The notes below the pieces were generated by a model. That model saw only the letters and a program-made list of their open reading frames with translations. It did not search any database and was not told where the DNA came from. The position numbers were made by a program, and so were the translations under genes. This document shows, piece by piece, positions 7,521 through 21,671 of a stretch of DNA of 34,621 nucleotides; within the stretch, counting starts at the first letter, position 1; each line of letters starts with the position of its first letter. Source of the DNA: Pirellulaceae bacterium (GTDB lineage: Bacteria > Planctomycetota > Planctomycetia > Pirellulales > Pirellulaceae); assembly GCA_024102795.1 (NCBI GenBank), contig JAGFJK010000373.1, forward strand, positions 1-34,621, read 5' to 3'.

Positions 7521-7726
7521 GGTGGGGGGATGCTGGTCTTCCGCGCCGACGCCCCGCCAGGAGGCACGGCGGCGACCAGGTGAGCAAATCTTCGTGCTAT
7601 TCTAACTCAAGTTTGCCTTGCCGCGAGCCAGGTAAGGTCTGCCGAGAGACAAGTTTGGCGACTAGAATTGGAGAACCGGAGACGGGACTGACCGTGCCAA
7701 CCGGGTGTCGCAGCGGAAAGTCAACC

Positions 7727-9052
7727 ATGCAGCAGCCAGTAGAACCGATCAAGATCCGCCAACAGTTGGGGAAGTATAAGATCGAGCGGCGGCTGGGGCA
7801 GGGTGGGTTCTCCATCGTTTACCAGGCGATGGACACCATCGAGGGGGTGCGCGTCGCGCTTAAGATTCCCCACCGGCGGTACATCAATCGGGAGACGCTG
7901 GAGGAGTTCCGACGCGAAGTCCGCCTGGCCGCCCAACTGAAACATCCCAACATCCTGCCGCTGAAGAACGCCGAATTCATCCAGGGATACTTCGTCGTCG
8001 CTTTTCCTTTGGGCGAACGGACGCTTGGCGAGCGCCTGCAACATCGGGTCTCCCTGGCGACGGCCTTGGAGTACGCCGAGCAGATGTTGCAGGCCACGGC
8101 CTATGCGCACCTGCACCACATCATTCACTGCGACATCAAGCCCGATAACCTGATCCTGTTTCCCGACAAGCGGTTGATGCTGACCGATTTCGGCATCGCC
8201 AAAGTGGCGGTCCGCACGATCCGCGCATCGGGGTCGGGAACGGTGGGTTACATCGCGCCCGAACAGGCGATGGGCAAGCCGTCGTTTCGCTCCGACGTGT
8301 TCTCGCTGGGGCTGATCGTCTACCGCATGCTCAGTGGCAGCCTGCCGGAGTATCCGTTTGAGTGGCCGCCTCCAGGCTACGACCGCATCCGCCGGCGGCT
8401 GGACCCCGAACTGATTCAATTGGTCCGGCGGGCCATCGACGTGGATCCTCGCAAGCGGTTTGCGGACGCGGGGAAAATGCTGGCCGCTCTGCAGCGCGTC
8501 AAACCGCGAGCGCTGCGCTACGGCTCGAAGCGGGCGATGCAGGCCAGCAAGACCAGTCGCGGGCGGGACTGGCGGACGATGCAGCGGCGCCAGTTCCTGC
8601 AGCAATACGGCTCCACGCTGCAAACGCGCTACAAGTGTTCCAAATGCGACGGCCCGGTAGCCGAGTGCATGCAGTATTGCCCCTGGTGCTCCGTCCCGCG
8701 CCCGGTTCATACGGATCAGACGACCTATCCGCAGCGATGCCCGCGTTGCAGCCGCGGGATGAAGCTGGACTGGACTTTTTGCCCCTGGTGTTTCGGACCG
8801 GGGTTCGAGGTGCAGACGGTTCGCCATTTTTCCGACTCGCGTTATATTGCCAAGTGTTCCAACTCGAAGTGCGCGCGGAAGCTGCTGATGCCCTTTATGA
8901 GGTATTGCCCGTGGTGCCACCGCAAGATTCGGCGAAAATGGCAGATCCCGGACTGTGCCGAACGGTGTGGCTCGTGCGGCTGGGGTGTGGTCGGCACGTT
9001 CTGGAGTTATTGCCCCTGGTGCGGCAAAACGTTGCTCGGCCGGAACAAGTGA
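7727..9052 (+). CDS. Ser/Thr protein kinase with four C-terminal zinc ribbons
   Basis: Hanks-type protein kinase, 441 aa. Visible motifs are the glycine loop GQGGFSIVY (about residue 24), VALKI with the ATP-binding Lys46, HCDIKPDN (catalytic Asp136; the Arg of HRD is Cys), DFG at 154-156 and APE at 178-180. After the kinase domain (about residues 15-260) comes a basic linker. Then four Cys-pair modules each end in Y/F-CPWC: Cys304/307 with 318/321, Cys338/341 with 352/355, Cys377/382 with 394/397, and Cys410/414/417 with 429/432. They look like tandem zinc ribbons. No transmembrane helix is seen, so the kinase is probably cytoplasmic. The ATG at 7727 puts the glycine loop at the usual distance from the N-terminus. 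The phosphatase gene starts 10 nt after the stop, so kinase and phosphatase probably act as a pair. Confidence 0.93.
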   Translation: MQQPVEPIKIRQQLGKYKIERRLGQGGFSIVYQAMDTIEGVRVALKIPHRRYINRETLEEFRREVRLAAQLKHPNILPLKNAEFIQGYFVVAFPLGERTLGERLQHRVSLATALEYAEQMLQATAYAHLHHIIHCDIKPDNLILFPDKRLMLTDFGIAKVAVRTIRASGSGTVGYIAPEQAMGKPSFRSDVFSLGLIVYRMLSGSLPEYPFEWPPPGYDRIRRRLDPELIQLVRRAIDVDPRKRFADAGKMLAALQRVKPRALRYGSKRAMQASKTSRGRDWRTMQRRQFLQQYGSTLQTRYKCSKCDGPVAECMQYCPWCSVPRPVHTDQTTYPQRCPRCSRGMKLDWTFCPWCFGPGFEVQTVRHFSDSRYIAKCSNSKCARKLLMPFMRYCPWCHRKIRRKWQIPDCAERCGSCGWGVVGTFWSYCPWCGKTLLGRNK

Positions 9053-9062
9053 GGCTCTGAGG

Positions 9063-10013
9063 ATGAAGGCCAACGCGCTGGCGACCGCCTGGTTTGTGGA
9101 CGAACGTCATGCGGCACCCGATTTATTGGAGCTGCCCTGCGGACGGGTCGTCGTGCATTCGTCCCGCTGTCCGGGAAAGGAATCGCCCAACGAAGATGCG
9201 GCGGCGGTGATCCCGGTGGCGGACGACACGGTCGTGCTGGTGGTGGCCGATGGCATGGGAGGTGGTCCGGCGGGCGAGAAGGCCGCGCTGTTGGCCGTGC
9301 ATGCGCTGGCTGGCGCGCTGGAGGAGATCGATCCGTCGCACGATCAGCAACGGCGGTTCGCCATCTTGAACGGCATCGAGGAAGCGAACCGGTCGATCCA
9401 GCAGTTGGGCATCGGTGCGGCGACGACGCTGGCCGTGGTGGAGATCTGCGGCCGGGTGATGCGGCCGTATCATGTGGGCGATTGTTTGATCCTCGTAGTT
9501 GGCCAGCGCGGCAAGCTCAAGCTGCAGGCCGTGCCGCACTCCCCGGTGGGCTACGGCGTCGAGTCGGGATTGCTGGACGATAACGAGGCGATGCATCATG
9601 CCGATCGGCACCTGGTGTCGAACGTCGTCGGCTCGCCCGACATGCGGATCGAAGTCGGCGCGCCGCTGGAGCTGGCGGCGCGCGACACGTTGATCGTGGC
9701 CTCCGATGGCCTGTCCGACAACCTGCGCGTGGATGAAATCGCCTCCGAGATGCGCAAGGGAAACTTGTGGCAGGCAGCCGAGCGGCTGGCGCTAGGGGCC
9801 CGCGAACGGATGTCGGGCGCGATTCCCGATGTCCCCAGCAAGCCGGACGATCTGACTCTGCTGGCCTTCCGTCCCCGCCGGGCGTTCTTCCAGCGGCCGC
9901 CGGTGAAGGCACCGGCCGAACGGGTCGCGGCGCCGACGGTCGAGCCTCGGCGGCCAGGTCCCGAACGCGGGGAGTCGACCGCGGACACCGCCACCACCTC
10001 GGCCGCCGGCTGA
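9063..10013 (+). CDS. PP2C-family Ser/Thr protein phosphatase
   Basis: Metal-dependent PPM/PP2C phosphatase, 316 aa. The metal-binding motifs are present: SPNEDAA (Asp45), VVADGMGGG (Asp63), HVGDC, VASDGLSD and PDDLTLLAF. The catalytic domain fills about residues 30-275. The remaining 40 residues are Pro/Ala/Arg-rich and look disordered. The ATG at 9063 is preceded by GTGAGG at 9049-9054, 8 nt away, and this overlaps the kinase stop codon. That spacing suggests translational coupling. The likely role is to reverse phosphorylation by the upstream kinase, which is inferred from gene order. Confidence 0.93.
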   Translation: MKANALATAWFVDERHAAPDLLELPCGRVVVHSSRCPGKESPNEDAAAVIPVADDTVVLVVADGMGGGPAGEKAALLAVHALAGALEEIDPSHDQQRRFAILNGIEEANRSIQQLGIGAATTLAVVEICGRVMRPYHVGDCLILVVGQRGKLKLQAVPHSPVGYGVESGLLDDNEAMHHADRHLVSNVVGSPDMRIEVGAPLELAARDTLIVASDGLSDNLRVDEIASEMRKGNLWQAAERLALGARERMSGAIPDVPSKPDDLTLLAFRPRRAFFQRPPVKAPAERVAAPTVEPRRPGPERGESTADTATTSAAG

Positions 10014-10122: not shown

Positions 10123-12063
10123 ATGCGACGTTTCCAATGGCGGCGGCTGACGGTGGAGTGCCTGGAGAGCCGAGCTCTGCTGCATGGCGGCCCCTACGAC
10201 ACCAGCGATCTTCCCCCCTGGCGCGAGCCGTCCGGCAGCTACTGGGCTGCCGCGGGCGAGGGATCCGGGATGCTGGTGGCCGACTTCAGTTTGCTGGATA
10301 CCAACCCGACCTCGCCCACGCACAACCAGCCCGTTTCGCCCCGTGATTACCTTGGCCAGGTCAGCGGCTGGTACTTCGGCCACGCGACGTGAGGCTACTG
10401 CAGCGTCCAGTTTGGACGCCTGGATGACTTGCAGCGCGACCTGCGGACCAACCACCCGGATCTGCAAATCCAAATCCTGGGCATGAATCAGCTCGGACAC
10501 GAAGGAGGCAACCCGTCGATCACGGACGGGCGGGATCTACCCTGGCTGCAGGACGTCGACGCGGATCAAAACGGCAGCTCCGACGTCTGGCTCAATAGCT
10601 GGCCGTTCGCCTACCGTGACGTCGTGATCCTGGACGCTGAAAACCGAGTTCTCAGCAGGTACAACCTGACCTCGAACGACCTGCGCGTGGCGGCCAACTA
10701 CGACGAACTGAAACAGTTGTTCCTGGACGCGGCGGGTGAAAGCGCCGCCACGCCGCTCAACAACGATTTCCTGGAAATGCCGCCGGGCGCGGTGAGCGAC
10801 ATCCTGGTTTTGCGCAACGACCCGGTGGGAGCCAACGGCAATTGGACGTTGGAATCGTTCCAGCCGCCGGCCCAAGGGACGGCCGAGCTGGTCACGATCA
10901 GCTATCCGACCGACCTGAATCCGCAGGAGTGGCCGGCGCCAACGCTGGTGATCAGCGAAATTCGGCCAGGAGAAGCGATTGAGCTGTTCAACGGATCCTA
11001 CCAGCCCCTGGCGCTGGACGATGTGAACTGGCAACTGGTCGCCGGCTCCCAGCGGCGGGCGATTTCCGCCATGGCCAGCGGTCAGGTCGTGAACGCCCGC
11101 GGCTACGTCGAACTGGCCTGGCCCGCCGAGTTTGCCGGCTCGGACGGCGGTGGCGAATTGCTGTTGTACGGCCAGCCCGGAGCGGACCTGAACGACCCGA
11201 ACCAGGTTCGCGATTTCGTCGCCTGGGGCACGCCGCTGGCCGGCAGCCGGATTGAACTGGCGCGAGGTTCCGGCCGCTGGTCGGGCGACCCCGCCCCGGC
11301 ACTGGCACAAGGCTCCATCCAGCGACGCGTCGCCACGTTCGGCCAATCGGCAAGTGACTATGAAACGCAGACGGCGCCCACACCTGCCGCGGCACCCGAT
11401 GGCGCGTCGGTCAGCCATCCGGCGATTCGCTACACGGCGCCGGCGGACTTCGCCGGCGAGGTTTCCTTCGGATACACGGCCCGCGATCCGATGGGAATTG
11501 CCGGCACCGCCTCGGTCACCATCGACGTGCTTCCCGCCGCTCACCCCTGGCGCAACGCCGCCGATAGCCTGGACGTGGACGCCAACGGCCTGCGTGCTCC
11601 CAACGACGCCTTGCTGATCATCAACCTGCTCAACCGCGGACTGCAGGGCCAGTTGCCTGTGTCGCGAGTGTCGTTACTGGCCACGCTGCCCTACGTCGAC
11701 AGCAATGGCAGCAATTCGATCGAACCCGCGGACCTGCTGCGGATCATCAACGGTCTGAACAGCGGCGTGCCGGCCGAAGGCGAAGCGTCAGCCGTGATGC
11801 CGGGCTTTGAGGTCGCGCCGGGCTTTCCGGTGGTGCCGGGCTTTCAGGCCGCCAACAATACGCCAGTGAACGATCTCTATTTGACTGGGCCAAACGTTCA
11901 GATGGTGCCGGGCTTCCAGCCTGGCTTGGACACGCCAGAGGTACGGCTCCACGGAAATCGGACAGGCCAGAGGCCTAGCACCGCCGCAAGACCAGGCACT
12001 TGGAGCGACGAACTGCTGCTGGCCGAACTTGTGGATGCCGTCTGGGAGGATGAGCTGTCGTAG
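10123..12063 (+). CDS. Predicted secreted selenoprotein: SelP-like domain plus dockerin
   Basis: The frame runs unbroken from 10123 to 12063 except for one TGA at 10390-10392. Read as selenocysteine, the product is 646 aa with Sec90 and Cys93 in a UGYC motif. Residues 1-20 (RRLTVECLESRALL) resemble the planctomycete LEPR-XLL secretion signal. Residues about 50-200 resemble the N-terminal domain of animal selenoprotein P. ATUGYCSVQFGRLDDL compares with ASUYLCILQASKLEDL of human SELENOP, and later blocks also match (LPW...DVW, then YRDVVILDAENRVLSRY). This is a thioredoxin-like redox fold. Residues about 274-370 look like a lamin-tail domain (LVISEIRPGEAIELFNG). Next is a cadherin/Ig-like strand set (RYTAPADFAGEVSFGYTARD). 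Residues 477-546 form a type I dockerin with two Ca-binding-loop repeats (DSLDVDANG, YVDSNGSN). The role is inferred to be extracellular redox or selenium binding. The main alternative is a nonsense-split pseudogene. Confidence 0.85.
10390..10392 (+). other. In-frame TGA proposed to code selenocysteine
   Basis: The TGA lies between GHAT and GYC codons at the exact position of a redox-active Cys/Sec in a U-x-x-C motif. The frame stays open for another 557 codons and the protein similarity continues on both sides of the codon. Other genes in the window use TGA as a normal stop, so a general code change does not explain it. Confidence 0.82.
10398..10434 (+). promoter_or_regulatory. Candidate bacterial SECIS hairpin
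   Basis: gcgtcca at 10403-10409 and tggacgc at 10413-10419 form a perfect 7-bp stem with a gtt loop. An outer ctgca/tgcag pairing (10398-10402 with 10430-10434) can extend it across an internal loop. The apical loop starts with G, and 17 nt separate it from the TGA. As I recall the bacterial SECIS rules, these are a short stem-loop inside the coding region, a G among the first two loop bases, and 16-37 nt from UGA to loop. This hairpin meets them. It would recruit SelB with Sec-tRNA. Confidence 0.75.
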
Positions 12064-12067
12064 CTGG

Positions 12068-12162
12068 AACGCGGGCTGGATGCTGATGTTACGTGCGTCA
12101 TGGACAGAACACGGGCTGGAAGCCCATGCTACAAGGAAACACGGGCTGGAAGCCCATGCTAC
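12068..12162. repeat. GGGCTGGAAGCCC hairpin repeats
   Basis: Two exact copies of a 24-bp element whose core is acgggctggaagcccatgct, at 12109-12132 and 12139-12162, with a decayed copy at 12068-12093. The core ggget-like palindrome is gggct-gga-agccc. They fill the short gap between the selenoprotein stop and the convergent PVC haem gene and could fold in either transcript. Confidence 0.8.
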
Positions 12163-12188: not shown

Positions 12189-15100
12189 TCATGGATCGGT
12201 GACGATACGCTGCACAGTGCCCACGGGCGGACCGGCCGCCATCAGGTAGGCGAACAGGTCGAGCACCTGTTCGGGTCGCAGGTTGTTCAGCAGCCCGTCG
12301 GGCATCAACGACAGGTTCGAGCTCTGGATCTGTTCCACCGCGTCGCGGTCGATCGTCAGCTTTTCCTGCGGTGTCTGCAGCGATACCGTGCGTCCCGACT
12401 CGCCACCCAGCACTCCGTTCAGCACGCGGCCATCGGCGAGCACGACGACCGACATCCGAAAACTGGCGGCAACCTGCCCCGACGGGTCGAAGATGTTTTC
12501 GAGCCAGTAGTTGACGTTCGTTCGCTGGGCGCCGGTCAAATCGGGACCAATCGCGCCCCCGTCGCCGAACAGTTTGTGGCACTTGCCGCAGGCTTCCCGA
12601 AAGACCAGCCGGCCCCGTGCGGCATCGGCCGTGGACAAGTCGGCGGCCGACAACCGCTGGCGCCACTCGGCGATTTGCGCCAGTTTATCCTCGGCCAGCA
12701 ACCGCAGATCGGGCCAGAGCCGCGCCACCTCGTCCGACAGACTCTCATCGCCCAGCAACTGCATTTGCCGCAGCACAAACGGACTGACCTCCTCCCGGCG
12801 AACTGTCCCGGCGGCGACGGCCGCGAGCAGTACGGACGCGGTGGCGGGGCGCGAGGCCAGCACTTCGATCGTTGCCTCGCGGGCCGCGGTTCGCATCTGG
12901 CCGTACTTGGACAGCAACAGCCCGGCCGTGTCGTCGCTGCCGCTGACTCCCAGCGCGCGGACGGCCGACACGCCCAGTTCGCGGTCGGCCAGCAGGCCGC
13001 TCACCAGTTGGGGCAAGTCGGGGCTGCGGGCATCGGCCAACGCTCGAATGGCGCTCCGCCGCGTTTCGAGCGGCAGCGAGCCGTCGCCGACCATTCGCCG
13101 CAGTTCGTCCAGCGCTCGGCCGTCGCCAAACACCAGCGACACCTCGCGAAGCTGATCCCGCACATCCACCGGGTCGTGGCGCTGGACGGTCGCGGCCAAT
13201 TGCGGCCAGCCGGCGGGTTGCGGAGCGCGCAGCCAGCCGCGCAGCGCCTCGGCCATTCCCCGCACAACCGCCTGGCGCTGCGCCGCGTCGAATGAAGTGG
13301 CGGCCTGGCGAGTCAGCGCATCGGCTGCCTGCGGCTGCTGGTCCAGCAGCGAGGCAACGCGGCGAGCGACCAGCCGGTTGACTCGCGGCATTCGCGATTG
13401 CGACACCAGCTCCGCGGCCCGCTCCGGCGCGCCCGCCACGATCGGTTCGACACCGTACCAGATCATCAGCGGCAGCGTGCGGTCGTCGGCGAACTGCTCG
13501 TGCCCCACCAACCGCCGTGCCAGCTCCCACCGCTGGTCGTGCGGCAATCGCTGCAAAGCCGACGCCAGGTATGTGAGCACCAGGCCCGACGTTTCCCGTT
13601 CCGCCAGGCTCGCCAGCTTCTCTGCGACGGCCTGCGCAACGGGCGACGTTTCGACCAGCAACTGAATGGCCCACACCCGCACGTGCTCGCTGGGATGAGC
13701 CAGTTGTTCGAGCAACCAGCCGGCTTCCAGCGCCCCGATGGCGTGCAGGCACCAGAGTTGCCGCAATTGGTGGACCTCGTCTGTTTCGCTGGCATACTGC
13801 AGGTGGAGTTGCCGGGCGGCCTCGGACAGATCGGCTCCGGCCGCCGCCCGCTGCTGCAACTGCTGCCGGGCCTGACGCGCGTGCCACTCATTGGCGTGCC
13901 GCTGCAATCGCACCAGCTCGTCATCCGCCGCTTGCGACAGGTCGGCAGTCGCGCCGCGCGACTGGCCGTGGCGAATCCTGTAGATCCGTCCCGATGTGCG
14001 ATGCACGCCGTCGTTCTCGTGGCATTCGCCGATATCCGACCAGTCCATCAGGTACACGGCGCCATCGGGACCAGCCAGCAGTTCCAAACCGCGGAACCAG
14101 GGGTCGGCCACGGTCAGGAAATCGGGTTCATGCCGCCCGGTATACGTGGCCCCGTCGCGTTGCAGCCGGTCGCGGTTCACGCGGAGTCCGTGCAGGTTGA
14201 CGGTGAATGCCTGGCCGCGGTACTCGGCGGGCCATTGATCGCCCTGGTAGATCATCAGGCCGCTGTGGGCGTGGCCGCCGCCCAGGCGGCTCGAAGCCTC
14301 GCTCACTCCCTGGTTACGTACGTCCGACCATTTCTCGCGGCCCGCGTCCCAATGCACGTGGTCGGCCGTCTGGCCGATCAGCTCGTACACGTACGGGTTC
14401 AGGTCCTCGCCATACATCCGTTCCAGGTGAGCTCCCGGCACGGCGTGCCAGAGGTGGCCGATGACGGTGTTGATGAAGAACATCTGCCCGTGACGGTCCC
14501 AGTCGCTGCCCCAGGGATTGGTCGTTCCGTGGCAGACAACTTCAAAGCGGCGCTGCACCGGATGAAACCGCCAGATGCCGCAGTTCATCGGCTGCCGCTC
14601 CAGGTCGGAACATCCCGGCACGCCGATTCGCGACGTGGCCAGAATTCCGTTGCGGCCGTACAGCCAACCGTCGGGGCCCCACTTCAGGCCGTTGACGAAG
14701 TTGTGCCGCGCCTCGGATGCGTCCCAGCCATCGAGCACCACTTGCGGCTCGCCATCCGGCACGTCGTCGGCGTCGCGATCGGGAATGAACAGCAGGTGCG
14801 GCGGGCACAGAGCCCACACGCCTCCGAAGCCGACTTCCACGCTGGTCAGTCGCTGCGCCTGGTCCCAGAACACGCGCCGCTGGTCCGCTCGCCCGTCGCC
14901 GTCAGTGTCGGCCAGGATCACGATCCGGTCGCGGTACCGCAGGTCGTAATTCGCCTCGCGTTCGGCATAGGTGTAGTTCTCCGCCACCCACAACCGCCCG
15001 CGGGCGTCGAAGGTCATGGCGATTGGCTGCTGCACCTGCGGCTCGGAGGCGAACACGTCCACGGCAAAGCCCGCGGGCAACCGCATGCCGGCGGCCGCCA

Positions 15101-15302
15101 CGGCGGCACTCAGGCGGGCAACGGACTCTGGCTGCGTATTCGAACTCGCGTCGATCGTCGCCGGCTGCTGTGCCGGGATCGGGGTCGCGGCCAGCGACCA
15201 CAGCAGCAGCGCCAGAGTAGCCGACTCGTAGAAGGTCTTCCCTCGCTTACGCGTCGGGCTGCATGGGACATCCAAGTGGTGTGGTACCATCAGTTGCATC
15301 AT
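12189..15302 (-). CDS. PVC-type membrane-bound dehydrogenase/HEAT/haem-binding protein
   Basis: Large planctomycete-type secreted protein, 1037 aa from the ATG at 15302. After a signal-like hydrophobic segment (ATLALLLWSLAATPIPAQ), the N-terminal half looks like a beta-propeller of the PVC 'membrane-bound dehydrogenase' group (PIAMTFDARGRLWVAENYTY, DTDGDGRADQRRVFW, GPDGWLYGRNGI, GPDGAVYLMDWSD). The middle is helical HEAT-like repeats. The C-terminal domain has one c-type haem motif, CGKCH, followed by IGPDLTG and the PVC haem-domain pattern (LENIFDPSGQVAASF, LADGRVLNGVL). The function is probably periplasmic electron transfer coupled to oxidation of a sugar-like substrate; the substrate is unknown. 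An open frame continues upstream to 15761 but only shadows the sulfatase gene. A repeat element lies within the N-terminal codons, and ATGs at 15299 and 15287 are alternative starts. It is last in a probable three-gene operon. Confidence 0.85.
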   Translation of the reverse strand: MMQLMVPHHLDVPCSPTRKRGKTFYESATLALLLWSLAATPIPAQQPATIDASSNTQPESVARLSAAVAAAGMRLPAGFAVDVFASEPQVQQPIAMTFDARGRLWVAENYTYAEREANYDLRYRDRIVILADTDGDGRADQRRVFWDQAQRLTSVEVGFGGVWALCPPHLLFIPDRDADDVPDGEPQVVLDGWDASEARHNFVNGLKWGPDGWLYGRNGILATSRIGVPGCSDLERQPMNCGIWRFHPVQRRFEVVCHGTTNPWGSDWDRHGQMFFINTVIGHLWHAVPGAHLERMYGEDLNPYVYELIGQTADHVHWDAGREKWSDVRNQGVSEASSRLGGGHAHSGLMIYQGDQWPAEYRGQAFTVNLHGLRVNRDRLQRDGATYTGRHEPDFLTVADPWFRGLELLAGPDGAVYLMDWSDIGECHENDGVHRTSGRIYRIRHGQSRGATADLSQAADDELVRLQRHANEWHARQARQQLQQRAAAGADLSEAARQLHLQYASETDEVHQLRQLWCLHAIGALEAGWLLEQLAHPSEHVRVWAIQLLVETSPVAQAVAEKLASLAERETSGLVLTYLASALQRLPHDQRWELARRLVGHEQFADDRTLPLMIWYGVEPIVAGAPERAAELVSQSRMPRVNRLVARRVASLLDQQPQAADALTRQAATSFDAAQRQAVVRGMAEALRGWLRAPQPAGWPQLAATVQRHDPVDVRDQLREVSLVFGDGRALDELRRMVGDGSLPLETRRSAIRALADARSPDLPQLVSGLLADRELGVSAVRALGVSGSDDTAGLLLSKYGQMRTAAREATIEVLASRPATASVLLAAVAAGTVRREEVSPFVLRQMQLLGDESLSDEVARLWPDLRLLAEDKLAQIAEWRQRLSAADLSTADAARGRLVFREACGKCHKLFGDGGAIGPDLTGAQRTNVNYWLENIFDPSGQVAASFRMSVVVLADGRVLNGVLGGESGRTVSLQTPQEKLTIDRDAVEQIQSSNLSLMPDGLLNNLRPEQVLDLFAYLMAAGPPVGTVQRIVTDP
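15238..15260. repeat. Interspersed repeat inside the N-terminal codons of the haem protein
   Basis: ccctcgcttacgcgtcgggc and flanking bases. A close relative, ccctcgctgacgcttcgggc, lies at 26590-26608 in intergenic DNA. Here it is translated as SPTRKRGKT just before the signal peptide, so an intergenic-type repeat appears to have become coding. Confidence 0.7.
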
Positions 15303-15352
15303 CGGGGGAGCTTTCGCATCACGTGCAGTGGGATTTCGCCGCGGCATCCGAG

Positions 15353-16855
15353 CTACCGCCAGAGCGGTTCGACCATCTGAGCGTTCAATTCCTGCCAGCG
15401 TTCCGCCAGTTCCCGGACCACATCGGGCCGCTGCCGGGCCAGGTCGCGGCTTTCGCCGGCATCGCCCGCCAGGTCGTACAGTTCCCAGTCGGGCGGCGGA
15501 TCGCCGGAGGAACCGTGCCGGACCAGTTTCCAGTCGCCGTGCCGCAGCGCGTGCCGCGCACCAACTCGCCAGAACAAGGTCCGCGGCGCGTCGTCCGCGG
15601 TCGCGTCTTCGCCGGCCGCCAGCAAGGACCGCAGCTCGACCCCGTCCAGGCGCGGATTGTCGGCCGGCTGGATGCGAGCCGCCGCCAGGAACGTGGGGAC
15701 CAGGTCCAGCGAGCTGACGGGCCGCGAGCAGACCTGGCCTGCCGGCAACTGCCCGGGCCAACGAGCCAGGAACGGGACCCGGATCCCGCCTTCATACAAC
15801 TGGCCTTTCTCGCCCCGCAGCGGCCGGTTGCTGCTGGTGAGTTCGCGCGTCGGGCCGCCATTGTCGCTCAGCAGCACGACCAGCGTGTCGCGGTCCAGGT
15901 TCCGCTCGCGCAACTTGTCCAGCACCCGTCCCACGCTCTCGTCCAGATGGGCCAGCATGGCGGCGAAGATCCGCCGCTGGATGTCGCCGATGGTATTGAA
16001 GCGGGCGAGCAAGCGGTCGGTGGCCTGCAGCGGACTATGCACGGCGTTGTACGACAGCAGCAGAAAGAACGGCTGCCCGGCGTGCCGATCGATGAACGAC
16101 TCGGCCTCGCGCGTCAAGGCATCCGTCAGGTACTCGCTTTCGGCCACCGGCTGGCTGTTGCGCAAGATCGGGTTGTTGGCGTCGTAATCCGGTTCGTTGT
16201 GGCCCATGTGGGTCGACCAGATCACTCGACCGTCGCCGCTCGTCCAGCGACCGCGCGAGCCATCGGGCAGAGCCTTGCGGCGGAGCCAGGTGGTGACGCC
16301 CTCCCAGGGAGGCGGCACAAAATAGTGCCCCTCATGCAGAAAGCCGTAAAACTGGTCGAATCCGCGCCGCTGCGGGTGGAATGGTGCCGTGCCGCCCAGA
16401 TGCCACTTGCCGATCAGGGCCGTCGCGTAGCCTCCGTCGCGCAGCAGGTGCGCAATCGTTGATTCGCCAGGCGGCAATCCGACCCCCGGCTGCTCGTTGC
16501 GAGCGCCGATTGGATTGAACTCAAAACCAAACCGCGTCTGGTAGCGGCCGGTCAGCAGTCCGGCGCGCGAGGCGGCACAGAACGGCGCGGTCACGTAGCC
16601 GTCGGTGAAGCGCACGCCCTCGGCCGCGAGCTGGTCGATCCGCGGAGTCGGGATGTCCCGGCCGCCCTGACAACCCGTTTCGCCATAACCCAGATCATCG
16701 GCCAGCAAAAGCACGATATTGGGCGCCCTGGTGGATTCCGCGGAGTGTGCCGTGATCGGCGAGCCGACGGACCATACCGCCGCGGCGACCACCGCAAAGA
16801 GTGCGACAAGTCGGGGGAGTGACTGGGCGGCGAGTTCCCTGGGTCGGGCAGGCAT
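15353..16855 (-). CDS. Secreted sulfatase (alkaline phosphatase superfamily)
   Basis: Arylsulfatase-type hydrolase, 500 aa, with a signal peptide (LVALFAVVAAAVWSVGSPITAHS). Metal-site residues are seen in NIVLLLADDLGYGE (Asp53, Asp54) and LSDNGGPT. The active-site segment is C93-A-A-S-R97-AGLLTGRY. The usual core is C/S-x-P-x-R. Here Ala replaces Pro, a form known to be accepted by radical-SAM anaerobic sulfatase-maturating enzymes. Cys93 would be converted to formylglycine. KWHLGG and the C-terminal substrate region complete the fold. It hydrolyses sulfate esters, probably of polysaccharides, outside the cytoplasm. GGAG lies 8 nt before the ATG at 16855. The stop is 50 nt before the haem-protein start and the gene follows the DUF1553 gene by 54 nt, so the three are probably co-transcribed. 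Confidence 0.92.
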   Translation of the reverse strand: MPARPRELAAQSLPRLVALFAVVAAAVWSVGSPITAHSAESTRAPNIVLLLADDLGYGETGCQGGRDIPTPRIDQLAAEGVRFTDGYVTAPFCAASRAGLLTGRYQTRFGFEFNPIGARNEQPGVGLPPGESTIAHLLRDGGYATALIGKWHLGGTAPFHPQRRGFDQFYGFLHEGHYFVPPPWEGVTTWLRRKALPDGSRGRWTSGDGRVIWSTHMGHNEPDYDANNPILRNSQPVAESEYLTDALTREAESFIDRHAGQPFFLLLSYNAVHSPLQATDRLLARFNTIGDIQRRIFAAMLAHLDESVGRVLDKLRERNLDRDTLVVLLSDNGGPTRELTSSNRPLRGEKGQLYEGGIRVPFLARWPGQLPAGQVCSRPVSSLDLVPTFLAAARIQPADNPRLDGVELRSLLAAGEDATADDAPRTLFWRVGARHALRHGDWKLVRHGSSGDPPPDWELYDLAGDAGESRDLARQRPDVVRELAERWQELNAQMVEPLWR

Positions 16856-16909
16856 GCGATTCTCCGGTGGCCGGTTGCTTCGCGGGAACGTGAAGATGCC
16901 GGCCCCGCC

Positions 16910-19417
16910 CTACCTCAAGTAAATGAACTCGTTGGCCGCCAGCACCGCCTGGCACATCACTTGCCAGGCTTGCCGGCGAGCGGCCGCTTCCGGCATCTTG
17001 TCTTCCCCGGCCTCCTCGCGTACCAGGTCAATCAGTTGTGTCAGCTCGGCCGCGAACTGCTCCCGTTCCTCGGCCGTCGCCCCGCGACCATAGGCCAGCC
17101 GATACAACTGCTCCACCCGCTGATCGTCCGACAGCTCTTCGCCGCTCAACAGACGATCGGCCAGCGCCGCAGATGCCTCGATGACCAGCGGGCTGTTCAT
17201 CATGAACAGGGCCTGGGGAGCGATCGTCGTCGAACTGCGGTCGCCGTTCGACACGCTGGCATCCGCGAAATCGAACAACTGAAACACGTCGTACAGGTTG
17301 TTTCGCACCACGGGCAGGTAAACGCTGCGCTGCCGGCTGTCGTACTTCGTGCCATCCTTCGAGGTGTGGTCGAAAAAGAATTCCCGGTTGCCCACGTGCA
17401 GCAGCGAACCGCCCAACCGCTGGTCCAGCTTGCCCGAGACGAACAGCAGCGCGTCGCGGATCGCCTCGGCCTCCAGCCGCCGCAAGGGGAAGCGGGCCAG
17501 CAAGCGATTGTCGGGATCCTTCTGGCGCGCCAGCGGTTCGGCCAGACTGCTGGTACGGTAGGTGCTGGAAAGCACGATCAGGCGGTGCAGTTGCTTCAGC
17601 GACCAGCCGTCACGCTGGAAGCGGACCGCCAGCCAGTCCAGCAGTTCGGGATGCGTCGGGCGAGTCCCAAGCTGGCCAAGGTTGTCGGTCGAACGGCAGA
17701 TGCCCTGCCCGAAGTGCCAGCGCCAGACGCGGTTGACGATCACGCGGCTGGTCAGCGGATGGCCCGGATCCGTCAGCCACTCGGCCAGCTCCCGGCGCCC
17801 ACTGGTCTGCTCGGCAAGCTCCACCGGCTCGTCATCCGCCAGCACCTGCGGGAAGCCGCGCGGAATCACCTCGCCCAACGTCAAATGGCTGCCGCGCACG
17901 TGGATCGGAACGTTGCTGATCTCGCGGTCGCAAACGCCCATCGCCGTCGGCAACTGCGGCGCCTGGCTCTGCAGCAGCTTGAGCTCATCCCGCAAGGCCT
18001 TCAATTGGCTGCGCGTTTCCTCCGGATATTTGGCCTCGGCGTCCTTGGGTACCGTCGCCCCCGGTTCGGCAGACTTCAGCAGTTGCTGGTTCGCGTCGGC
18101 GACCAGTTGCTGGATGGCCTGTTCCTGAGCCGCCACCCGGCGCTGGTGTTCGTCCGCCTGTTGCTGCTGGTCGGACGAGGCAATCGAAACTTCGTTCCAG
18201 CGGGCGATCTTGCGAAAGTGCTCCATCGTCCGCGTGCTCTTGAAGATCCCGGCCAGCGCGTAATAGTCGCGCATCGTGATCGGGTCGAATTTGTGGTCGT
18301 GGCAGCGGGCACAACCGAAAGTAAGTCCCAGGACGGCCGTGCCGAGGGTGCTGATCTGTTCGTCGATGATGTCCATTTCCATTTTGGTCTCATCGACTTC
18401 GGCCAGCACCTTGGGTCCCAGCGACAGAAAGCCGGTGGCCGTCGCCTGATCCCGCCGCTCGGCGTCGCTGGCCGCCGGCAACTGATCGCCGGCCAGTTGC
18501 TCGGCCAGGAACCGATCGTACGGCTTGTCCTGGTTCCAGGCCGCGATGACATAATCGCGGTACCGCCAGGCGTTGCCGTGGGCGATGTTCTCGTCCAGGC
18601 CGTTCGAGTCGGAGTAGCGAGCCACGTCGAGCCAGTGGCGTCCCCAGCGCACACCGTAGTGCGGCGAGGCGAGCAGGCGGTCCACGGCCCGCTCGTAGGC
18701 GTCGGCCCGCTGGTCGTCCTCAAACGCGGCCAATTCCTCCGGCGTTGGCGGCAGGCCCGTCAGGTCGAAGGTTACCCGCCGCAACCAGGTGCCCCGCGTC
18801 GCCGCCGGCGACGGCCGCAAACCGGCACGTTCCAGTTCCGCCAGGATGAAGTGGTCCAGTTCGTTGGCGGGCCAGGTGGTATCGGTGACCGCGGGCAAGT
18901 CGGGCATCCGGGGCGGAACAAACGACCAGAACCGTCGCGCCTGTTCCAGGTCGATGCGGTACCGTGAGCTGGCGGCGGGGGAAGCGGCGCCTCGAGCGTC
19001 CGGATGCGGCGCGCCCGCTTCGATCCAGCGGCGGAAGAGCGCCAGTTCCTCGTCCGACAACTTGCGATCCGGCGGCATCTGCAAGTCGTCTTCCTGGTAG
19101 CTGATGGCCGTCATCAGCAGGCTTTGGCCCGGCTCGCCGGGAACCACGGCCGGCCCCGAAACGCCGCCGCTGGCCATTCCCTCCCACGTATCCAGCCGCA
19201 GGTCCGACTCCTGCTTTTCCTCGCCATGGCACTTCAGGCAATGCCGGGCCAGCAACGGGCGGATCTTTTGCTCGAACAGCGCTGCGTTGGGCGGCGCTTC
19301 GGGTTCGGCGGACGCCGCCGGACCTGCCACCAGGCCCAGCCAGCTCGCCGCGACCAGCCACAACCCGGCAACACGGCTAACCCGGCGCACATTGGCCGGA
19401 ATCAAGTTCCAAATCAT
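16910..19417 (-). CDS. Planctomycete cytochrome C (PSCyt1)/DUF1549/DUF1553 protein
   Basis: Typical planctomycete exported protein, 835 aa from the ATG at 19417, which has GGAG about 10 nt upstream. After the signal peptide (VAGLWLVAASWLGLVAGPAASA) comes the PSCyt1 domain with haem motif C60-L-K-C63-H64 and its usual followers (LRLDTWEGMASGG, VVPGEPGQSLL, MPPDRKLSDEE). Then come the DUF1549 (PSCyt2) domain (WPANELDHFILAELERAGL, RRVTFDLTGLPPTPEE, RYSDSNG), a possible second haem motif CARCH, a coiled-coil-like Gln-rich stretch and the DUF1553 (PSD1) domain (LTSRVIVNRVWRWHFGQG, LARFPLRRLEAEAIRDALL, QALFMMNSPLV). The biochemical role of these proteins is not established. Their regular company with sulfatases suggests polysaccharide oxidation or degradation. 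It is the first gene of the probable operon. Confidence 0.92.
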   Translation of the reverse strand: MIWNLIPANVRRVSRVAGLWLVAASWLGLVAGPAASAEPEAPPNAALFEQKIRPLLARHCLKCHGEEKQESDLRLDTWEGMASGGVSGPAVVPGEPGQSLLMTAISYQEDDLQMPPDRKLSDEELALFRRWIEAGAPHPDARGAASPAASSRYRIDLEQARRFWSFVPPRMPDLPAVTDTTWPANELDHFILAELERAGLRPSPAATRGTWLRRVTFDLTGLPPTPEELAAFEDDQRADAYERAVDRLLASPHYGVRWGRHWLDVARYSDSNGLDENIAHGNAWRYRDYVIAAWNQDKPYDRFLAEQLAGDQLPAASDAERRDQATATGFLSLGPKVLAEVDETKMEMDIIDEQISTLGTAVLGLTFGCARCHDHKFDPITMRDYYALAGIFKSTRTMEHFRKIARWNEVSIASSDQQQQADEHQRRVAAQEQAIQQLVADANQQLLKSAEPGATVPKDAEAKYPEETRSQLKALRDELKLLQSQAPQLPTAMGVCDREISNVPIHVRGSHLTLGEVIPRGFPQVLADDEPVELAEQTSGRRELAEWLTDPGHPLTSRVIVNRVWRWHFGQGICRSTDNLGQLGTRPTHPELLDWLAVRFQRDGWSLKQLHRLIVLSSTYRTSSLAEPLARQKDPDNRLLARFPLRRLEAEAIRDALLFVSGKLDQRLGGSLLHVGNREFFFDHTSKDGTKYDSRQRSVYLPVVRNNLYDVFQLFDFADASVSNGDRSSTTIAPQALFMMNSPLVIEASAALADRLLSGEELSDDQRVEQLYRLAYGRGATAEEREQFAAELTQLIDLVREEAGEDKMPEAAARRQAWQVMCQAVLAANEFIYLR

Positions 19418-19550
19418 TCGCGTCGATCTCCACTCGGCCGTTCGCGGCGGCGCCACAACGACGCTCGCCACGCCATCCGACTCCCCGGCAATTCGCATCC
19501 ATGATTATAGATGCAAACGAGCGGCCGGGGGGAGAGGGACGACAAGCCGG

Positions 19551-21671
19551 CTACCACACCAGTGAGAGACCGCCGTAACCCGAAATGCCAGGTGTCCCGA
19601 AGCCGTTCACCTCCTCGTACTGCTCGTCGAACAGGTTGTCGCCGCGGAAGATCAGGCGGCAGGTGGGCGTCAGCTCGTAGTGCCCCGAGACGTTGACCGT
19701 CAGGTAGCGGTCCAGCACCGCGTCGCCCGTGTCGAGCCGGTCGCCGACGTACAGCAGATAGCCGCTCAGCAGTGCCCGATCGCAGCACAGGCGGCGGTGG
19801 ATTTGCAAGCTGGCCTTGTCGCGAGGACGCCGCAAGAGCGGCCGATCGGCGTCCAGGTCCAGCGTGTCGGTCAGTGTGTACGTGGCCCCCAGGGTCGTCT
19901 TCGCGTCGGCCTGCCAGTTGGCCACCACCTCGACGCCCGACGTCCGCGCCCGGCCCACGTTTTGCAGCGAGAAGGTGTTGAAGTCGAACACGATCAGATC
20001 CGTAAAGTCGTTGCGGAAGTACGTACCGCTCAACAGCACCCGATCGCCGAACAACTGCTGTTCGAGGCCCACGTCCCAGCCGCGACTTTGTTCGGGCCGC
20101 AGGTCGGGGTTGCCGAACTCGAACAGGTTCTCGGCCAGCGCGGGCGCTCGGAAGCCGGTCCCCAGCGAACTGCGGACCGCGGTGCCCGTTTCGTCGAACC
20201 GCAGCAAGCCGGTCAGCCGGTAGGTCTGGGCCGGGCCGGCCGTGTTCCAGTCGTCCCAGCGGTAGCCGAACGTCAAGTAAAACCGCTCGCCCCACTGCTG
20301 CTCGTCCAGCAGGAACACGTGCGCGTTGTGCTGCGAGTACGCGGCGTCGGTCGCCGCGTCCTCGTTCAAGTAGCCCGTGCCGACCGAGAACGTGTTGTTT
20401 TCGGTCAGCAACAGGTCCGCTCGATAGTTGACCGTCCGTGTCTGCCCGTCGAAGGCGGGAACGAAGGCGAAGGCGCTGGTGTCCCGCCGGGCGTAGTCCG
20501 TCAGATTCAGGCTGACCGTGTGAGTGAGCGTACCGTCCAACTGAGCCAGTTGGAACTGCAGCCGGTTGTAGAGCGCGCGGGTCAGGTTCGCGCCAGGAAA
20601 GGCATCGGTCGGCAGTCCGGTCAGAAAGTCGAATTGATCGATCTCGGCGTCGGCGTCGGTGTAGCGGATCGAGTAGTCGATATTCAGGTTCTCGCGGGGG
20701 TTCCAGCCCACTCGCCCGGACAGCGTCAGGTTCTGATACCGGTCCCGCTCGGTGTTGCCCAGCCGCGAGCTGGCGGCGCTGATGCCGTCGGTATGCAGGA
20801 AGGCCGCGTCCAGGGAGTAGTATCGGCTGGCATTGCCGCCCGAAACGCTGACGGCCTGATCCGCGGTGCCGAAGCTGCCGCCGTTCAGTCGAAAGCGGGC
20901 CTGCGGCGGTCCCTCGCCGCGGCGCGTGATGATGTTCACCACGCCGCCGATCGCGTCCGATCCGTAAAGGATGCTCTGCGGCCCGCGCAGCACCTCGATC
21001 CGTTCGATGTTGTCCGTCAGCAGGGTCGAGAAATCGAAACCGCGCGTGGCGTTGCTGGGATCGTTCACTGGCATCCCGTCGATCAGCACCTTGGTCTGCT
21101 GCGAGTTCGCTCCGCGGAGGAACACCGAGGTCACACCGCCTGGCCCGCCCTGGCGCACGACGTCCAGGCCGACGGTCCCCCGGAGCACTTCGGCCACGGT
21201 GTTTTGAGCCGTGCGTTGAATGTCCTCGCGCGTGAGGACCGTGACCGAACTGGCCGTCTCGGACAGCGGCCGCTCGTTGCCCGTCGGCGCCTGCACCGGT
21301 TGGGACTGCCCCAGATCGGCCGATTCGCCGCCCGGTTCTCCCTGGACGACTGTCTCGGGGATCTCCAGCGGTTGTCCGTCGTCAGGCTGTTGATAAGCGG
21401 CGGCGCTGACTGCGGGAAGCGGCTGAGACTCGCTGACCGGCGGATCATTGGTCAACTGCCAGGTCTGCGCGCGCACGTTGGTCGCCGGCCACGCCAGCAG
21501 GAGGAGAAACAGGGCGAGCGTTGTGAGCGGCCAGAAACAGGGGGCTGACGCCCCCCGTTTGCCAACGTGGGGCGCCGAGAAACAGGGGGCTGACGCCCCC
21601 CGCTCGCCAACGTGGGGCGCCGAGAAACAGGGGGCTGACGCCCCCCGCTCGCCAAAGTCGGGCGGTGGCAT
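19551..21671 (-). CDS. TonB-dependent outer-membrane receptor (BtuB/siderophore type)
   Basis: Outer-membrane beta-barrel receptor, 706 aa. A hydrophobic signal (LTTLALFLLLLAWPATNVRAQ) starts near residue 50. A TonB-box-like IPETVVQGE follows, then the plug domain (SVTVLTREDIQRT, VFLRGANSQQTKVLIDGMPVND, IERIEVLRGPQSILYGSDAIGGVVNIIT) and a 22-strand-type barrel ending in Trp (GYGGLSLVW), the normal barrel end. The plug resembles BtuB-like and siderophore receptors; the substrate is not determined. Energy would come from TonB-ExbB-ExbD, not present here. The 45 residues before the signal peptide are three translated copies of a DNA repeat. No ATG, GTG or TTG lies between them and the signal, so the ATG at 21671 is the only clear start. 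I saw no convincing cobalamin riboswitch in the 170 bp upstream. Confidence 0.9.
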   Translation of the reverse strand: MPPPDFGERGASAPCFSAPHVGERGASAPCFSAPHVGKRGASAPCFWPLTTLALFLLLLAWPATNVRAQTWQLTNDPPVSESQPLPAVSAAAYQQPDDGQPLEIPETVVQGEPGGESADLGQSQPVQAPTGNERPLSETASSVTVLTREDIQRTAQNTVAEVLRGTVGLDVVRQGGPGGVTSVFLRGANSQQTKVLIDGMPVNDPSNATRGFDFSTLLTDNIERIEVLRGPQSILYGSDAIGGVVNIITRRGEGPPQARFRLNGGSFGTADQAVSVSGGNASRYYSLDAAFLHTDGISAASSRLGNTERDRYQNLTLSGRVGWNPRENLNIDYSIRYTDADAEIDQFDFLTGLPTDAFPGANLTRALYNRLQFQLAQLDGTLTHTVSLNLTDYARRDTSAFAFVPAFDGQTRTVNYRADLLLTENNTFSVGTGYLNEDAATDAAYSQHNAHVFLLDEQQWGERFYLTFGYRWDDWNTAGPAQTYRLTGLLRFDETGTAVRSSLGTGFRAPALAENLFEFGNPDLRPEQSRGWDVGLEQQLFGDRVLLSGTYFRNDFTDLIVFDFNTFSLQNVGRARTSGVEVVANWQADAKTTLGATYTLTDTLDLDADRPLLRRPRDKASLQIHRRLCCDRALLSGYLLYVGDRLDTGDAVLDRYLTVNVSGHYELTPTCRLIFRGDNLFDEQYEEVNGFGTPGISGYGGLSLVW
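21534..21660. repeat. Three 45-bp units with a GGGGGC/GCCCCC hairpin
   Basis: Units start at 21534, 21579 and 21624, each with gaaacagggggctgacgccc. The core gggggc-tgac-gccccc is a 6-bp hairpin. The period of 45 bp is exactly 15 codons, so the repeats are in frame with the receptor gene and add the sequence ERGASAPCFSAPHVG per unit. Confidence 0.9.

Follow-up and report, generated by a model that had tools for sequence, protein, structure and literature searches.

Bacterial selenoproteins that place a UxxC motif in a thioredoxin fold, U being selenocysteine (Sec), have been tabulated as redoxin-, peroxiredoxin- and TlpA-like proteins (PMC13188914, Table 1), and the protein described here resembles them in both respects. 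NCBIfam holds a related entry, NF053656.1 or redoxin_TUGYCR, under the name "TUGYCR motif thioredoxin fold (seleno)protein". Neither NF053656 nor the selenoprotein P profile SelP_N (PF04592) occurs among the rows of that table; its generic row 'Redoxin family protein, PF08534, UxxC' may nevertheless extend to relatives. Selenoproteins were also reported in planctomycetes P1 and P2 (PMC4807772), and the NF053656 family may be among the candidates of that paper. No description of the family was found in the literature searched, although the works of Haft and Tolstoy (2025) and of Haft and Gwadz (2023), both cited in PMC13188914, may contain one; the word 'TUGYCR' was not found in the full texts searched, and a term search gave no match in PMC12013277. 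Here, we analyzed a DNA stretch of 34,621 nucleotides from a Pirellulaceae bacterium (contig JAGFJK010000373.1, positions 1 to 34,621; hereafter the window), in which a long reading frame on the forward strand is broken by a single TGA. The encoded protein is, by its sequence, a member of NF053656 and not of selenoprotein P. The domain family has already been catalogued, so its kind is known. Taken alone, the assignment of the TGA to Sec is almost certainly correct. The interpretation given in an earlier note on this DNA, that of an extracellular bacterial protein similar to selenoprotein P, is partly supported overall.

The frame at 10123-12063 (+) is open over 646 residues but for TGA codon 90 (10390-10392), which sits at the U of UxxC in ATUGYCSVQFGRLDDL and has Cys93 as its partner residue. 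This interruption, pointed out in the earlier note, is confirmed as a real observation. Under translation table 11 the frame is split into an 89-codon piece and an open reading frame of 544 residues with a TTG start (10429-12063), and the window's own product in the protein set is just that 544-residue piece (P0038). The two-part annotation had been foreseen, the second part as a headless dockerin protein; headless it is, but its dockerin match remains below the Pfam cut-off (PF00404, 17.9 compared to 22.9 bits), and membership in the type I dockerins does not hold for the window protein. Used as a query in a search scoring the 7998 candidates with the most shared words, the 544-residue piece matched itself and one relative that covered 19% of it.

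When the frame is read through the TGA, NF053656 matches residues 52-203 from position 1 to position 146 of its 146 positions, with a score of 207.1 bits (E=1e-61) compared to a curated cut-off of 100 bits (NCBIfam release 20.0). The T-U/C-G-Y-C motif is present in a predicted thioredoxin fold, with TGA at the U. The AlphaFold model of the domain (predicted local distance difference test, pLDDT, of 90.7) has the thioredoxin fold among its nearest matches in the PDB, in agreement with what the earlier note had held; thiol-disulfide oxidoreductases lead the list of solved folds, DsbE/ResA being the closest, and the predicted model qualifies as TlpA/ResA-like. The domain differs from TlpA, ResA and DsbE in having Sec for the first Cys of the pair, in being only 19% and 14% identical to the two chains compared and in lacking the conserved proline just before strand 121-125. 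It differs from the 14 other NF053656 members that score above the cut-off in the phylum sample in its context: these end with the redox domain, whereas the window protein of 646 residues adds immunoglobulin (Ig), Lamin-tail-like and dockerin-like parts.

Scanning of named genome contigs with the part of the protein that follows the TGA gave 58 confirmed loci from 68 stretches, a set that overlaps in part with the phylum and own-family genome sets considered below. Of these relatives, 50 have TGA at the site, seven a Cys codon (TGT in four, TGC in three) and one TGN. The exchange of U and C among homologues that the earlier note had proposed to look for is present. The records are titled as Planctomycetota, Myxococcota, Verrucomicrobia and Eisenbacteria, and one TGA form (L072) comes from a record named Plesiocystis pacifica SIR-1, a myxobacterial strain. 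The relative L054, titled Planctomycetaceae bacterium SP176, shares 241 of 569 aligned positions (42%) with the window protein, before and after a TGA at the same codon, and is collinear with it throughout: N-terminal motif, redox domain, Lamin-tail-like segment, Ig domain and dockerin-like repeat. Since most relatives keep TGA or have a Cys codon at a redox active site, the TGA is most likely read as Sec.

Among 392 genomes of the phylum, 62 had a match at E<=0.001 and 15 a match above the NF053656 cut-off; the best match in each of the 15 has one TGA inside, and G212 and G063 carry second copies without a stop besides their TGA copies. The own family was sampled with 119 genomes. A match at E<=1e-15 was present in 25 of them, 17 of the TGA form (for G398 and G414 the TGA is taken from this search and not from a reading of the codon) and eight of the uninterrupted form. 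G400, one of the latter, also has a partial match that scores under the cut-off and contains TGA and TAA where a contig ends. The codon was read at 24 of the 28 own-family loci tried (29 matches were listed): 16 TGA, seven Cys and one TGN. A comparison at the level of protein entries covered 35 database proteins resembling the relative P0002: 27 stop exactly one residue before the site and three start after it, while the remaining ones have Cys (three), Trp (P0004) and Gly (P0006) there. A quick tree of 78 rows (64 U, 13 C, one unlabelled; 91 rows before near-identical ones were dropped) requires at least six Sec/Cys changes, with 38 of its 75 inner branches unresolved; the Cys genes form a few clades and are therefore not independent of one another. 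Tandem redox domains were seen in L010, L011 and P0005: the first copy is without U and C in all three, and the second keeps the TGA in L010 and L011 and ends at the site in P0005.

Downstream of the TGA lies a hairpin of the bacterial selenocysteine insertion sequence (SECIS) type. The published model involves a loop of 3-9 nt, a stem of 4-16 bp, a G in the first two loop positions, a distance of 16-37 nt from the UGA and a minimum free energy of -7.5 or below (PMC13188914). The window hairpin conforms to it in every point (loop AGUUU of 5 nt, stem of 6 bp, distance of 16 nt and, over 25 nt, -11.7 kcal/mol). The signal emerges from the comparison of relatives; a single-sequence fold is by itself uninformative, and the window sequence folded alone was not significant (z -0.42). 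Across 14 distinct sequences from 16 loci (L011 is identical to L010 in this region, and L022 was excluded as too distant), 91.7% of the cells are paired compared to 68.9% in shuffles, and cells with a double change number 23 compared to 7.2; none of 500 shuffles reached either value. With the pairing partners slid, the paired cells fall to 26-43%. Two further measures were not above the shuffles in this set: the four pairs with changes in both partners were equalled in 82 of 500 shuffles, and the eight further pair types in 384 of 500.

The hairpin differs between the two forms of the gene. Among the 58 loci, all six pairs are formed in 46 of the 50 TGA genes and four pairs in the other four, compared to 2, 2, 2, 3, 3, 3 and 4 pairs in the seven Cys genes and three in the TGN gene. 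The mean minimum free energy of the 25 nt is -10.1 kcal/mol in TGA genes and -1.8 kcal/mol in Cys genes, without overlap of the ranges. When synonymous codons were redrawn from the same gene, 3.95 pairs were expected compared to 5.84 seen, and the expectation was exceeded in 50 out of 50 genes. In the own family, six pairs were found at 16 of 16 TGA loci and two to four at 7 of 7 Cys loci.

The genome itself (8.56 Mb, 97.6% complete) has the complete set of Sec genes that the earlier note had wanted checked: selA (555.6 bits) with selB adjoining (363.1 bits), a tRNA-Sec with anticodon TCA (72.8 bits) and selD (343.5 bits). The selD gene has one in-frame TGA of its own, in the context C-A-G-TGA-A-G-K at about 2392-2394 of the minus strand of L113 (G000 contig C442), which makes selD a second likely selenoprotein. 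selA (E<=1e-60) occurs in 17 of 17 own-family genomes of the TGA form compared to 77 of all 119 (hypergeometric P=3e-4, kinship ignored), and in six of the eight genomes of the uninterrupted form (G393 and G486 are without it). For the phylum, selA is present in 13 of the 15 member genomes compared to 242 of 392 overall; the two member genomes without it are 77% and 87% complete.

Other readings of the TGA were also considered. As an ordinary stop, it would leave an 89-residue peptide and a headless protein of 544 residues, or else mark a pseudogene or a sequencing error; annotation does yield two pieces and the single-sequence fold is unremarkable. Against this stand the 50 of 57 readable relatives that have their TGA at this very site, with Cys codons in the other seven, the covarying hairpin that is absent from the Cys forms and the conservation of L054 on either side of the TGA, which together render an ordinary stop extremely improbable. 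Suppression of the TGA with another amino acid, for instance Trp, could draw on the Trp at the site in P0004, which may reflect a TGG codon or a different code used by the gene caller. The exchange partner, however, is Cys in seven loci and three database proteins, the hairpin is of SECIS type and the genome has the full Sec machinery, and to this possibility we attach next to no probability. The earlier note's assignment of a selenoprotein is supported by the site conservation, the covarying hairpin and the Sec genes. Membership in selenoprotein P is a different matter. The window protein has in common with that system a UxxC, a thioredoxin-like domain and a likely export as a selenoprotein, and L022, a Sec relative of distant kinship, scores above the cut-off of SelP_N and matches NF053656 weakly. 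Yet, the SelP_N search proposed in the earlier note, made with the Pfam profile and not with human SELENOP itself, gave no match to the full window protein at E<=10, none in its own genome at E<=1 and none for the 16 domain sequences at E<=1. That the domain is a true SelP_N member, hence that the protein is a bacterial selenoprotein P, appears very unlikely, and the identity was set aside. Selenoprotein P carries several Sec in its C-terminal tail. The window protein has a single in-frame TGA before the final stop, no Sec-rich C-terminus and its SECIS-type hairpin inside the reading frame.

L022 deserves separate consideration. This second planctomycete gene with an in-frame TGA (L022:1399-2271 (+), genome G133) is a distant Sec relative. 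It encodes a SWUGFC thioredoxin-like domain and dockerin-like repeats, and a hairpin of its own follows the TGA. It scores 51.5 bits against NF053656, below the cut-off, and a search with it returned 10 database proteins, of which all eight that were read begin after the site. The SelP_N cut-off (23.2 bits) was passed in five of the 392 phylum genomes. One pass is this locus (L022/L047), at 29.7 bits alone and 26.3 in the genome search; the other four are ordinary TlpA-like Cys proteins of the WATWC kind, scoring up to 27.7 bits. Because such proteins score alike, the SelP_N match of L022 is not specific, and L022 was dropped as a bridge between NF053656 and SelP_N. A profile comparison of the window domain with the TlpA-like WATWC proteins aligned only 32 columns around the active site with a probability of 2.8 and was uninformative.

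Based on the collective evidence, we consider it likely, though less assured than the Sec assignment itself, that the gene encodes a thioredoxin-fold protein with an active-site TGA decoded as Sec, which would be exported and serve as a thiol or peroxide reductase. Following the known pathway, SelB with Sec-tRNA(Sec) would bind the hairpin and insert Sec. The selenol of Sec90 could then attack a disulfide, a peroxide or another oxidized substrate outside the cytoplasm, with Cys93 resolving the selenenyl-sulfide, and the Ig, Lamin-tail-like and dockerin-like parts might anchor the domain to the surface of the cell or to the matrix. A real selenoprotein of the NF053656 family could instead have a regulatory, selenium-storage or metal-binding module in this place. 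Both UxxC positions are invariant in the aligned set (alignments A2 and A3 of 16 rows, with Sec shown as Cys and degenerate tandem copies left out), and the top solved folds are those of oxidoreductases; a role other than that of a reductase is unlikely on this account.

The reductase reading involves export, which is predicted for the window protein. Its N-terminal motif of the planctomycete-extracellular kind scores below the Pfam cut-off, as do those of L054 (20.3 bits) and L070 (20.2 bits). Lipoprotein-like starts were seen by eye in several of the 14 other phylum-sample members, and tails similar to PEP-CTERM in L057 (18.3 bits compared to a cut-off of 20.7) and, by eye, in L059 and L101; from these starts and tails, export of the family proteins is inferred. 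The part of the earlier claim concerning an extracellular selenoprotein may stand, whereas NF053656 takes the place of the similarity to selenoprotein P. The modules behind the redox domain are recognized with varying clarity. The Lamin-tail-like segment is weak in L054 as well (18.9 bits). Dockerin cut-offs were passed in five of nine relatives scanned (L053, L054, L055, L066, L070), L057 and L067 had a match below the cut-off and L080 and L109 had none. It is an evenly balanced proposal that planctomycetes of this family possess a class of surface-displayed multi-domain selenoenzymes, in which Ig, Lamin-tail-like and dockerin-like modules carry a thioredoxin-fold head with Sec, that would perform selenium chemistry outside the cell and in which Sec was repeatedly swapped for Cys, with the hairpin gone from the Cys forms.

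The findings have importance in several ways. If the protein is made, it would be a case of a large bacterial protein of modular build that employs Sec outside the cytoplasm. The family moreover represents a clean natural experiment, with the hairpin kept in TGA genes and absent from Cys genes wherever DNA was read, across at least six Sec/Cys changes in a weakly resolved tree. Genes of this type get broken in protein sets, as seen from the database relatives that end at the residue before the site (27 of 35). The TGA form in Plesiocystis pacifica SIR-1 would make the family directly testable in a named strain. Coordinates of the features are summarized in the table.

Table. Features of the selenoprotein gene in the window, with positions counted from the first letter of the window
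Feature	Position	Strand	Basis
Whole selenoprotein gene, TGA read as Sec (probable), 646 aa	10123..12063	+	Translation; collinear homologue L054
N-terminal Planctomycete-extracellular-like motif, residues 7-20, predicted export signal region	10141..10182	+	PF07595 13.1 bits, E=0.08, below cut-off 25.5
TUGYCR thioredoxin-fold redox domain, residues 52-203	10276..10731	+	NF053656 match
TGA codon 90, first position of UxxC, probably read as selenocysteine	10390..10392	+	TGA, Cys codon or TGN at the site in DNA loci read
Cys93 codon, predicted resolving residue of UxxC	10399..10401	+	Invariant in 16-row alignments A2 and A3
Bacterial SECIS-type hairpin, 6-bp stem GCGTCC/GGACGC, loop AGTTT, 16 nt after TGA	10403..10419	+	Covariation; fits bacterial SECIS constraints of PMC13188914
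Lamin-tail-like (LTD) segment, residues 272-331	10936..11115	+	PF00932 16.5 bits, E=0.012, below cut-off 34.3
Bacterial Ig domain (Big_9), residues 423-467	11389..11523	+	PF17963 28.8 bits, above cut-off 23.6
Dockerin-like repeat, residues 525-548	11695..11766	+	PF00404 17.9 bits, below cut-off 22.9

Lastly, the surroundings of the gene were considered. Recurrent neighbour genes are few, being shared by at most five of 59 loci, and among these loci there was no widely conserved neighbour that would name a substrate or an electron donor. Rfam at its gathering thresholds gave no family within the window. Upstream, at 7580-10013 (+), the window encodes a PP2C-like phosphatase besides a protein kinase; the opposite strand carries, downstream at 12189-21671 (-), DUF7133/cytochrome c, sulfatase, PSCyt/PSD1 and TonB-receptor genes. 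Within the C-terminal part of the protein, PGF motifs are repeated at 11797-11925 (MPGFEVAPGFPVVPGFQ, VPGFQPG), and just past the stop codon, at 12109-12162, ACACGGGCTGGAAGCCCATGCTAC is seen by eye in two direct copies.
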